From a virus: a stretch of 26,385 bases of DNA. The notes beneath the pieces are model-generated. The model worked only from the letters and a program-made list of their open reading frames with translations. It had not been told where the DNA came from and did no database searches. The translations under genes were made by a program, and so were the position numbers. Shown piece by piece: positions 19,269 to 26,385 of the stretch; position 1 is the stretch's first letter, and each line of letters starts with the position of its first letter. Location of the stretch: positions 1-26,385 of the IMG/VR virus record IMGVR_UViG_3300022602_000362; one strand, 5' to 3'.

Positions 19269-20096
19269 TTATTCCCAGTCATAGTCTGCAACATATTGTT
19301 CTTTAGTCATGAGACCTTGCTTAACAAATCGGTCACATGCTGCTTTTGCTTCAGGTGGCAAACTGTTGTAAGACTTCTTACCACCAGTTACCGGTCTTGT
19401 GTTTGTACTAGATGTACCTTCCATTGGATTTGGTGTCTTTTTCTTACCAAACTTTTCAGGAATCATTTCAGCTAGTTCTTCATCTAATTTCTTTAAGAAA
19501 GCTTCACCGATTAGGGAAGGATTCTCACGACGAAGTTCAACTCCAAGGCTGTTAGCTACTGCAGTCATTTTTGTATCTTTACCAAACCAGTCGTTACGGT
19601 CAATCCATGCGTTAAGCATTGGGTCTTCTGTAATCTGTGGCGTAGCCTTAGCTGCTTCTTCTGCTTTTTTAACTTCTGCCTTTGCTTCAAGATGCTCTTC
19701 TTTAATAGCATCCATTGCATCGTCAATCGCTAAAACTCGATCACCGTCACCAGTGTTGATTGCATCACGTTTAGCCATTTTCAATTGGTCTAGTTGAGTT
19801 TCAAGATCTTTACTCTTACGCTCATACTGTTCTTTTTGAAACTGTTTAAACTCTAGTGCAGCCTCACGAGCCTCATTAGCAGCTTTTTTTGCTTCAGCTA
19901 ATTCTTTAAGCAATTTCTCATTGTTCTTACGTAAGATTGGCATAATCTCTCTACCACGACGTACAAACGTCTCAGCATCAACCCAATCATTCTCAGAACC
20001 TCTAAAATCATCCTTTGGTACCCAACCTTGTGCTTTCGCTTCGGATTCGTACTCAGGAGCTTCTTGCTGTTGCTCTACTACCTGTTCATCACTCAT
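19269..20096 (-). CDS. Scaffolding protein
   Basis: 275 residues, highly charged. An acidic Gln/Glu N-terminus (MSDEQVVEQQQEAPEYESEA) leads to GWVPKDDFRGSENDWVDAET (23-42), a motif common at the start of podovirus scaffolds. Then comes a long coiled coil (about 50-150, KLLKELAEAKKAANEAREAA and following). Past a PMLNAWIDRNDWFGKD segment the C-terminal helix-turn has KSYNSLPPEAKAACDRFVKQ. This layout and position just before the coat genes fit a P22-type scaffold whose basic C-terminal helix-turn-helix binds coat. It overlaps the GroES-like stop as TAATG. Confidence 0.85.
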   Translation of the reverse strand: MSDEQVVEQQQEAPEYESEAKAQGWVPKDDFRGSENDWVDAETFVRRGREIMPILRKNNEKLLKELAEAKKAANEAREAALEFKQFQKEQYERKSKDLETQLDQLKMAKRDAINTGDGDRVLAIDDAMDAIKEEHLEAKAEVKKAEEAAKATPQITEDPMLNAWIDRNDWFGKDTKMTAVANSLGVELRRENPSLIGEAFLKKLDEELAEMIPEKFGKKKTPNPMEGTSSTNTRPVTGGKKSYNSLPPEAKAACDRFVKQGLMTKEQYVADYDWE

Positions 20097-20437
20097 TACT
20101 TTAATCCCTTAGTTAAATGTGGATCTACTAAATCCATATCATCATCTAGCTTACCTGTCAAATCATCGTAGTTCACCATACGGTAGCCTTTTTTATCTTT
20201 ACCGGTATACATTAAACCTGCATACTTAGCAAAAATAACTTTATCGCCTACTGCCACAATACCTGCTGGAACTTCTTCGCCTAGTGCTACAATCTGACCT
20301 GTAGTGTTTGCTAACTGTTCTCTTTCGGAAGCTTCTTCAGTGTTTAACTGAAAACCCCATTCTGTTTTTTCAACGACCTGTAACGGTAGAATTAAAACTC
20401 TGTCAAAGATTGGTGTTATTCCTGATGGATTAATCAT
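20096..20437 (-). CDS. GroES-like co-chaperonin
   Basis: 113 residues. PIFDRVLILPLQVVEKTEWG (9-28) is the Cpn10 opening (PLxDRVLV), GFQLN...EREQ forms the mobile loop that contacts GroEL, GQIVALGEEVP and VAVGDKVIFAKYAG (61-74) are the conserved barrel strands, and GYRMVNYDDLTGKL ends the fold. Predicted to assemble as a heptamer cap of host GroEL and help fold the coat protein, the role known for T4 gp31 and related viral co-chaperonins. The gene lies between portal and scaffold, consistent with late expression for capsid folding. Confidence 0.88.
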   Translation of the reverse strand: MINPSGITPIFDRVLILPLQVVEKTEWGFQLNTEEASEREQLANTTGQIVALGEEVPAGIVAVGDKVIFAKYAGLMYTGKDKKGYRMVNYDDLTGKLDDDMDLVDPHLTKGLK

Positions 20438-24757: not shown

Positions 24758-24787
24758 CAGTCATATCTTTAATTATTTAATGATACC

Positions 24788-24816
24788 ATTATATCATATA
24801 AGTTTAAATTTGTCAA
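24788..24816 (-). promoter_or_regulatory. Consensus leftward promoter of the late operon
   Basis: On the minus strand TTGACA (24816-24811), a 17-base spacer and TATAAT (24793-24788). Perfect hexamers and ideal spacing, with AT-rich sequence upstream. Predicted start about 24781, some 24 bases before the terS ATG. It is the only strong candidate for driving the late gene block. Confidence 0.9.
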
Positions 24817-24850
24817 GTATTATTTTATAGAGGGGACATAAAAAAACTTC

Positions 24851-24879
24851 TTGACAAAAGATAAAAAATGTGCTATTAT
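24851..24879 (+). promoter_or_regulatory. Consensus rightward promoter
   Basis: TTGACA (24851-24856), 17-base spacer ending TGC (extended -10), TATTAT (24874-24879). It is divergent from the late promoter, with 34 bases between the two -35 boxes; 9-bp arms TTTGTCAAG (24809) and CTTGACAAA (24850) overlap both -35 sites as an inverted repeat. Predicted start about 24886, giving a long leader before the GP88 gene. Confidence 0.85.
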
Positions 24880-24882
24880 AAG

Positions 24883-24894
24883 TACTATATAGTA
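24883..24894. promoter_or_regulatory. Palindrome at rightward start site
   Basis: TACTATATAGTA is a perfect 12-bp palindrome lying across the predicted transcription start of the rightward promoter. A regulator binding here would block initiation. AT-rich palindromes can arise by chance, so the call is tentative. Confidence 0.45.
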
Positions 24895-24954
24895 AATACA
24901 TAGTAACGCTATAGTAAAGCTTTTTATAGAGTTTTATCTATGTATGTATTTACT
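24891..24954 (+). other. Long inverted repeat at 5' end of rightward leader
   Basis: AGTAAATACATA (24891-24902) is an exact reverse complement of TATGTATTTACT (24943-24954), with an inner CTATA/TATAG pairing in the 40-base loop. The rightward RNA would begin with this stem. Confidence 0.6.
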
Positions 24955-25286
24955 GAGATGTAACTAAGTAGACCTAACGAGAACAGTTCAGTAAACTACT
25001 TAGTGCTTCGTGCACATATTGTAATTATTTTAAAGTGTATTCACTATTCTTGAATAAAGAATGTCTCAGTGCTTCTCAGCACATCGTAGGCTACCCTACC
25101 CTCAACTTGTAATTTAAAATCAATACAGAGCTGTTTAGAGCCTCTGGTGAGCATTTTAGACCTGTCTAGACCCTACCCCCTATTCTAAAAATTATGCCAG
25201 CGTTAAAAATAGCGTTATATATATTTATAAAGAATTCTTTTTTGCCCCTGCCTACCCTGTATATCTATACAGTATTACCCTAGCTA

Positions 25287-25420
25287 GGTTAGTGAGTACT
25301 TACTTACTTAACTCGGATTTAAGAAGGTCACTAAGTTAGTGAGTGCTTACTTCATAGTGAGTGTGTCCCTGATACAAGTTAGTAAGGACTTACTTCCTAG
25401 TCTACTCTGTCCCTGCATCA
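25287..25420. repeat. Dyadic iteron-like repeats
   Basis: Three copies of an 18-base unit with consensus GTTAGTRAGTRCTTACTT start at 25288, 25335 and 25378 (spacing 47 and 43), and a weaker fourth, GTTAGCACGCACTTACA, is at 25509. Each core AGTRAGTRCTTACT is a near-perfect dyad. The second and third units extend into a 43-bp imperfect tandem repeat that also shares TGTCCCTG. They look like binding sites for one protein: a replication initiator (iterons) or a regulator. Confidence 0.7.
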
Positions 25421-25452
25421 TGTCAGTGCATATTACTAAAAGTTATATAAGC

Positions 25453-25470
25453 TGTTGTTTTTAGACAACA
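25453..25470. promoter_or_regulatory. Operator candidate 1 (TGTTGT-N6-ACAACA)
   Basis: TGTTGTTTTTAGACAACA is a perfect inverted repeat with 6-bp arms. It differs at only two bases from the site at 25630-25647, 177 bp away. Confidence 0.65.
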
Positions 25471-25547
25471 AAGTAGTAAGGCGTAACGCAACCGTATAAA
25501 ATCAATAAGTTAGCACGCACTTACACTACACCATTTCACTATCTAAT

Positions 25548-25562
25548 TGATAATGATTCTCA
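25548..25562. promoter_or_regulatory. Fur-box-like dyad 1
   Basis: TGATAATGATTCTCA, 13 of 14 conserved positions of the Fur 7-1-7 motif TGATAATnATTATCA. First of three in a row. Confidence 0.55.
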
Positions 25563-25581
25563 CTCGTATTTGATTAGTTAT

Positions 25582-25596
25582 TGAGAATGATTCTCA
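25582..25596. promoter_or_regulatory. Fur-box-like dyad 2
   Basis: TGAGAATGATTCTCA, a perfect 7-1-7 dyad around a central G and a frequent variant of bacterial Fur sites; 12 of 14 positions of the 7-1-7 motif. Confidence 0.58.
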
Positions 25597-25604
25597 CTTG
25601 TAAA

Positions 25605-25619
25605 CGATAACGATTCTCA
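25605..25619. promoter_or_regulatory. Fur-box-like dyad 3
   Basis: CGATAACGATTCTCA, 11 of 14 positions of the 7-1-7 motif; 20 bases upstream of the -35 of the GP88 promoter. Confidence 0.45.
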
Positions 25620-25629
25620 TTTAAAGCAC

Positions 25630-25647
25630 TGTTGTATTTTGACAACA
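25630..25647. promoter_or_regulatory. Operator candidate 2, overlaps the -35 box
   Basis: TGTTGTATTTTGACAACA, a perfect inverted repeat with 6-bp arms, 16 of 18 bases identical to the site at 25453. It covers the TTGACA at 25639-25644, so a bound protein would exclude RNA polymerase. Confidence 0.72.
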
Positions 25648-25666
25648 TAGGGTTTATCCCTATAGT
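25639..25666 (+). promoter_or_regulatory. Sigma-70 promoter of the GP88 gene
   Basis: TTGACA (25639-25644), 16-base spacer, TATAGT (25661-25666). Predicted start about 25673, then a ~50-base leader with AAGGAG (25710-25715) eight bases before the ATG. Confidence 0.75.
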
Positions 25667-25723
25667 TTTTTTGTTGTGACTATATAAAATAGAATCATCA
25701 ACACAACATAAGGAGATTTAAAA

Positions 25724-26385
25724 ATGTTTACTAGAAAACAATTATTAGGATTCAATACCAACGCTAAAACGATTAAGGGAGAAAAGATCGGTTATTATAC
25801 CGGCATTTTATATCTTGCACCAAGCGATATCTCCGGCTTTCAGGTTTGCCCCTTAGCTAAATTGGCACAATGTGAGAAAGCCTGTTTATATACAGCGGGA
25901 AGAGGGGCATTTAATTCTATACAGCAAGCTAGAATTGAGAAAACAAAATACTTTTTCAATGATCGTAACAATTTTATGATCAATATCTATAAGGATATCG
26001 AGAAGGGTATCAAGAAAGCTAAACAATTAAATCAAGAGTTATTAATTCGTTTAAACGGAACGAGTGATATTAAATGGGAAAATGTATCATTTGAATATAA
26101 CGGGATCACTTATGACAATATTATGAGTGCATTTCCTACTGTTCAATTTTATGATTATACTAAAATACCGAATAGGGTTAACTTACCGGAAAATTATGAT
26201 TTAACATTCTCTTATTCTGGCGTTATTAGTTTTCAAAAGTATGTTACAAAAGCAATTGAGAATAAAAACCGTATCGCTGTTGTTTTTCGATACGAGAGAG
26301 ACATACCTAAAATGTTCAAGGGTTTAAATGTAATCGGCGGAGATAATTCAGACGTGCGGCATATTGAAGATAAAAATACTATTGT
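25724..26385 (+). CDS. GP88-family phage protein, 3' end cut by window
   Basis: 220 codons visible, frame open at the window end. Recognisable GP88 (gene product 88) features in order: FQVCPLAKLAQCEKACLYTA with C42-x7-C50-x3-C54 and AGRG; ARIEKTKYFFNDRNNF; RLNGTSDIKWE; AFPTVQFYDYTK; TFSYSG; and VIGGDNSDVRHIED. The cysteine cluster plus a likely TIM-barrel pattern could bind an iron-sulphur cluster, as in radical-SAM-like enzymes, but this is inference: biochemical function is unknown to me. The only rightward gene in the window, it is preceded by AAGGAG, a promoter, an overlapping operator and three Fur-like boxes. AGRG and GTSDIKWE are strong family marks. Confidence 0.85.
   Translation, partial: MFTRKQLLGFNTNAKTIKGEKIGYYTGILYLAPSDISGFQVCPLAKLAQCEKACLYTAGRGAFNSIQQARIEKTKYFFNDRNNFMINIYKDIEKGIKKAKQLNQELLIRLNGTSDIKWENVSFEYNGITYDNIMSAFPTVQFYDYTKIPNRVNLPENYDLTFSYSGVISFQKYVTKAIENKNRIAVVFRYERDIPKMFKGLNVIGGDNSDVRHIEDKNTI

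Follow-up and report, generated by a model that had tools for sequence, protein, structure and literature searches.

Tandem Fur-box sequences in the control region of a lake phage and in unrelated phages: candidate sites for the host iron regulator

Results

Layout of the locus

The window, by which we mean the whole 26,385-base virus record analysed here, carries on its minus strand the structural genes for a terminase, an SU10-type portal, a cpn10-like protein and a capsid protein, and derives from a tailed, probably lytic phage. Megablast of the window against phages returned no match. An AT-rich and repeat-rich control region separates this late operon from the early operon on the plus strand (Table 1), and the late and early operons of a relative, MW202796, are arranged around their control region in the same way. 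The gene for the cpn10-like protein lies amid the head genes, an order that MW202796 shares. The control region also holds TAGTRAGNNCTTACT in three copies, spaced by about 45 bases, which are possible operators or iterons; two copies, placed differently, occur in the nearest relative (L005), and none was found in the relatives L007, L010 or G004.

Table 1 Features of the window discussed in the text
Feature	Position	Strand	Remarks
cpn10-like protein gene (PF00166)	20096-20437	-	
Divergent non-coding control region	24758-25723 (966 bases)		ORF map; packaging genes; MW202796 arranged alike
TAGTRAGNNCTTACT, three copies	25290-25394		
Fur box 1, TGATAATGATTCTCA	25548-25562		20.2 bits (E. coli matrix); retained in nearest relative
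Fur box 2, TGAGAATGATTCTCA	25582-25596		19.4 bits; perfect 7-1-7 dyad; retained in nearest relative
Fur box 3, CGATAACGATTCTCA	25605-25619		17.4 bits; imperfect dyad (13/15); retained in nearest relative
Early promoter, TTGACA-16-TATAGT	25639-25666	+	11/12 consensus
AGGGTTTATCCCT dyad	25649-25661		In promoter spacer
GP88 gene (PF17338), first early gene here	25724-26385, cut by window end	+	Pfam E 4e-37; PHROG 1617

Three Fur boxes upstream of the early promoter

The first-pass annotation had described three sites of the type recognized by Fur within 72 bases, all of them 7-1-7 dyads, ending 20 bases before the -35 element of a promoter for GP88. The sites and the promoter were found where they had been placed and the dyads fit the consensus TGATAATNATTATCA, with two amendments: one of the three is an imperfect dyad, and the gap to the -35 is 19 bases. 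The start-to-start spacings are 34 and 23 bases, and no other such cluster occurs in the window. In order to avoid circularity, the scoring matrix was derived, with the window excluded, from a palindromic motif search on 12 intergenic regions of E. coli K-12 that lie upstream of well-known Fur-regulated genes; the motif returned was TGATAATCATTATCA. By this matrix, which comes from E. coli, the per-position probabilities of boxes 1 to 3 are about 4e-8, 1e-7 and 9e-7, and the next-best site in the window reaches 11.1 bits. The E. coli sites themselves score 8.9 to 19.5 bits (mean 15.5), so that the boxes in the window exceed nearly all of them.

A control region rich in AT and repeats might be expected to throw up resemblances to Fur boxes by accident, an explanation to which we attach a negligible probability. 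Not one of 2000 first-order Markov copies of the intergenic region contained even a single site of at least 17 bits, none of 100 shuffled windows reached six matches at three or fewer mismatches, and all three sites are retained in the nearest relative. Chance is already refuted by the Markov copies together with this retention, and the three sites are, as judged from their sequence, Fur boxes.

Fur operators usually sit over the promoter. The boxes in the window lie upstream of the promoter core and do not overlap it; with the start site set seven bases after the -10 element, their centres would fall at about -118, -84 and -61. The spacer of the promoter is itself occupied by the AGGGTTTATCCCT dyad. 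Dyads of the form AGGGT-N-CCCT lie upstream of GP88 in 11 of 18 GP88 loci and therefore mark a regulator site separate from, and better conserved than, the Fur boxes; AGGGTTTATCCCT probably serves as operator for a non-Fur regulator, encoded either by the phage or by the host. No strict DnaA box was found in this region of the window.

Relatives and the link to GP88

The nearest relative is a 45.6 kb record whose aligned segments are mostly 90-98% identical to the window. All three boxes are unchanged there, with substitutions beside them, and an ORF of 51 amino acids separates the promoter from GP88. Boxes of at least 12.5 bits are absent from 16 of the 17 other GP88 loci (L006-L009 and L011-L022; best-segment identity across the 17, 47-78%), while the remaining locus, L010, has one box, downstream of GP88. 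L007 and L008 lack boxes in spite of TerL proteins 86-88% identical to that of the window. Because of the intervening ORF, the boxless majority of GP88 loci and the boxless L007 and L008, the boxes are assigned by these comparisons to the control region of the early operon and are not tied to GP88, and they are dispensable over short evolutionary times. The specific link to GP88 drawn in the first-pass annotation is thus not upheld, and the expectation that relatives would keep the boxes upstream of this gene is borne out in the nearest relative alone.

A perfect TGATAATGATTATCA in the relative G004 was rejected as a control-region box, being located inside the reading frame of a virion gene. 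Host class was likewise discarded as an explanation for the absence of boxes: GP88 phages of alpha-proteobacteria are boxless, but there is no clean contrast between host classes, since the phages Limnohabitans DC31 and Stenotrophomonas RAS14 are boxless too.

The GP88 protein

The GP88 product matches PF17338 with 128.7 bits against a curated cut-off of 24.4. The C-x7-C-x3-C arrangement already noted in its sequence (Cys42, Cys50 and Cys54) is present and is invariant in 20 GP88 homologues; its spacing differs from the canonical CX3CX2C motif of radical-SAM enzymes. An AlphaFold model (pLDDT 88, pTM 0.85) gave no Foldseek match at E 0.001, and the sequence found no match in the PDB. In VIA-align the best 16 rows were all of radical-SAM type, with Z scores of 4.6-7.2; the best row was the PFL-activating enzyme (Z 7.2, rmsd 3.9, 159 residues), and a Z of this size may, according to the tool, reflect no more than a common arrangement. 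In the model the cysteines come after the first strand, which is the position of the cluster in radical-SAM enzymes. GP88 is plausibly an iron-sulphur-type protein, and it models like a radical-SAM enzyme with non-canonical cysteine spacing.

Arrays in uncultured viruses and in bacteria

IMG/VR and bacterial genomes were scanned for a tandem pattern consisting of AATGATTCTCA, 4-30 bases and GATTCTCA. At least 119 loci in IMG/VR carry it, against 17 for the reversed pattern. Among the 119 listed, 108 have two or more boxes of at least 11 bits and 63 have three or more, with a maximum of nine, whereas the rest of these loci contains only 80 boxes of at least 11 bits in approximately 1.03 million bases. 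The commonest spacings between boxes are 23, 29 and 34 bases, the first and last of which are those of the window. Clustered by DNA similarity along with the window and MW202796, the listed arrays fall into 65 unrelated clusters. The box columns are more conserved than their flanks in 12 of 13 clusters (sign test p 0.002), letters required by the search having been excluded. An array of Fur boxes is, these figures suggest, widespread among unrelated phages.

In bacterial genomes a true box pair was present in 32 of the 118 tandem loci listed, the remainder being mostly chance matches; the bacterial and IMG/VR counts are both lower bounds, and the densities of the two sets are not comparable. 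Of these 32 listed pairs, 16 have an iron-uptake homologue within the locus, although for some of the 16 the match is to the ABC ATPase FhuC and is perhaps not specific. L232 and L321, both from beta-proteobacteria, have their boxes directly ahead of the gene for a TonB receptor. Since iron-uptake homologues are found in none of the 119 viral loci listed, host contamination does not account for the viral arrays. One of the bacterial loci, L291 (NYTN01000042, binned as a Rhodobiaceae MAG), has six boxes and equals in length, at 20,518 bases, the IMG/VR contig of L130; it is probably phage DNA mis-binned in a bacterial genome.

Host Fur as the likely reader

A gene of the Fur family (PF01475) was found neither in the window nor in 49 array-bearing records, several of which are fragments with rough gene calls. 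For this reason host Fur, proposed as the reader in the first-pass annotation, is the likely ligand of the arrays, and we regard its binding to the array as very probable. The alternative offered by the same annotation is that the dyads serve a regulator encoded by the phage, in which case their likeness to Fur boxes would be convergent. Other dyads of phage type do occur in the region (AGGGTTTATCCCT and AGTRAGNNCTTACT), but the motif fits the E. coli Fur matrix and recurs in unrelated phages for which no shared regulator was identified, and with a Fur homologue in none of the 49 records we consider this reading highly unlikely.

Cultured phages

When three 21-base boxes were compared by blastn with cultured phages, near-perfect boxes were matched in 500 records and the reversed control matched none. 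Most are phages of Escherichia, Salmonella, Klebsiella and Vibrio, largely T5-like and Phapecoctavirus-type, together with RaK2. In T5 (AY587007; L203, 576-735) the repeats of the injection-stop region, a region described as consisting of repeats, palindromes and DnaA boxes, hold Fur boxes of 20.2, 15.2 and 14.4 bits, for which the annotation goes no further than 'direct repeat C' and palindromes (E-J). This array lies in the terminal repeat between converging gene ends, and the array of anhysbys is also placed between converging genes. An additional 21-bit box is found inside T5 dmp, at 233. A Vibrio relative of T5 retains a box close to the same early genes, within an extensive non-coding stretch, accompanied by three strict DnaA boxes. 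The early genes of MW202796 are read from a promoter (10/12) whose -35 is directly adjoined by a single perfect box. Klebsiella phage RaK2 (L325, 3218-5715) has at least seven Fur boxes, of which two precede short genes by about 225 bases, and the set looks like dispersed operators rather than a single array.

The rise of host iron-uptake genes during some phage infections has been called unexplained (PMC6024767). PAK_P4 and Campylobacter phage NCTC 12673 are reported as inducing host iron genes and PAK_P3 is not. No array was found in any of the three, counts being near those of the reversed control and slightly above it for PAK_P4 (5 against 1), and arrays were accordingly rejected as the cause of the reported inductions.

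Discussion

Titration, promoter control or structure

Our best explanation, offered tentatively and from sequence comparison, is that the main control region presents three high-affinity sites to host iron-loaded Fur and thereby titrates it. Iron-loaded Fur of the host would load onto the array and, as the phage DNA multiplies, the array would pull Fur off host operators; the withdrawal would partly derepress host iron uptake, in a natural counterpart of the laboratory Fur titration assay, and a side effect on the early promoter 19 bases downstream is likely. Titration is favoured because the sites are near-consensus and multicopy, their distance from promoters is variable, their overlap with promoter cores is low and the arrays of T5 and anhysbys are placed between convergent genes. 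If Fur does bind, we put titration at about an even prospect, control of the promoter lower and a structural role well below both. Several observations weigh against titration: three boxes per genome would need a high copy number to matter, the natural test afforded by PAK_P4, PAK_P3 and NCTC 12673 did not support it, and the close relatives L007 and L008 manage without boxes.

The same sites could instead serve as operators, with iron-loaded host Fur at about -61, -84 and -118 repressing or activating the early promoter so that transcription tracks host iron status, as the first-pass annotation had supposed. This is a real though less probable possibility, to which the near-consensus promoter just beyond box 3, the box abutting the early promoter of MW202796, the RaK2 boxes ahead of two short genes and the frequent location of arrays in divergent control regions (18 of the 39 classified) all lend support. 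However, the boxes lie at least 19 bases upstream of the -35 and leave the promoter core uncovered, unlike usual Fur repressor sites; the distance between array and promoter ranges among phages from overlap to more than 200 bases; and converging genes flank the arrays of T5 and anhysbys. A promoter core (at least 9/12) is overlapped by 58 of 217 array boxes, compared with 10 of the 12 boxes from E. coli (p 1e-4); this comparison presupposes promoters like those of E. coli, includes several boxes from the same array and has only 12 reference sites. Relative to shifted controls, array boxes overlap cores slightly more often (27% versus 18%, p 0.005), which counts against titration. We lean towards titration over promoter control by a small margin. 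A structural role, in which Fur on the array would act as a nucleoprotein block or platform while the DNA enters, replicates or is packaged, is improbable: the T5 array is part of the injection-stop region and the Vibrio relative combines its box with DnaA boxes, but the region in the window has no strict DnaA box and no known entry or origin site is associated with the arrays of other phages.

Extended beyond the window, the titration reading would make Fur-box arrays widespread non-coding sponges that open host iron uptake, from lake and marine phages to T5-like phages, Phapecoctavirus and RaK2, a generalization that we advance as a doubtful but possible one. Searches of the literature outside subscription journals turned up no paper on Fur arrays in phages, and the arrays suggest an apparently unreported way for phages to engage the iron-control protein of the host. 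If host Fur binds, many unrelated phages engage the host iron regulator directly through their DNA, which would supply one testable cause for the rise of host iron-uptake genes in some infections, although the phages named in PMC6024767 are without arrays. The long-known injection-stop repeats of T5 would gain a testable function, in a model phage for which a fur-null host is easy to use.

Comparison with known systems

Like the Fur boxes of bacterial iron-uptake genes (E. coli fecI, fhuF and cirA), those of the window are 7-1-7 dyads fitting the consensus, and the phage arrays are tandem, as are bacterial copies upstream of TonB receptors. They differ from the bacterial boxes in having no iron gene nearby, in lying upstream of the promoter core and in matching the consensus more closely than most sites of the E. 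coli set do. The stx1 promoter of Shiga-toxin prophages has a Fur box, a phage-borne site read by host Fur, as is proposed for the window; there, however, a single operator serves one cargo gene of temperate phages, whereas here arrays occupy control regions alongside lytic-type gene sets. 'Direct repeat C' and palindromes E-J of T5 contain Fur boxes by the same matrix as was used for the window, the T5 array being situated in a terminal repeat between converging genes and that of the window at an early promoter. In FURTA, finally, a technique described in the literature, Fur boxes present in multicopy take Fur away from operators on the chromosome, just as is proposed for the phage array; FURTA is a laboratory plasmid construct, and the arrays described here would be its use in nature by phages.
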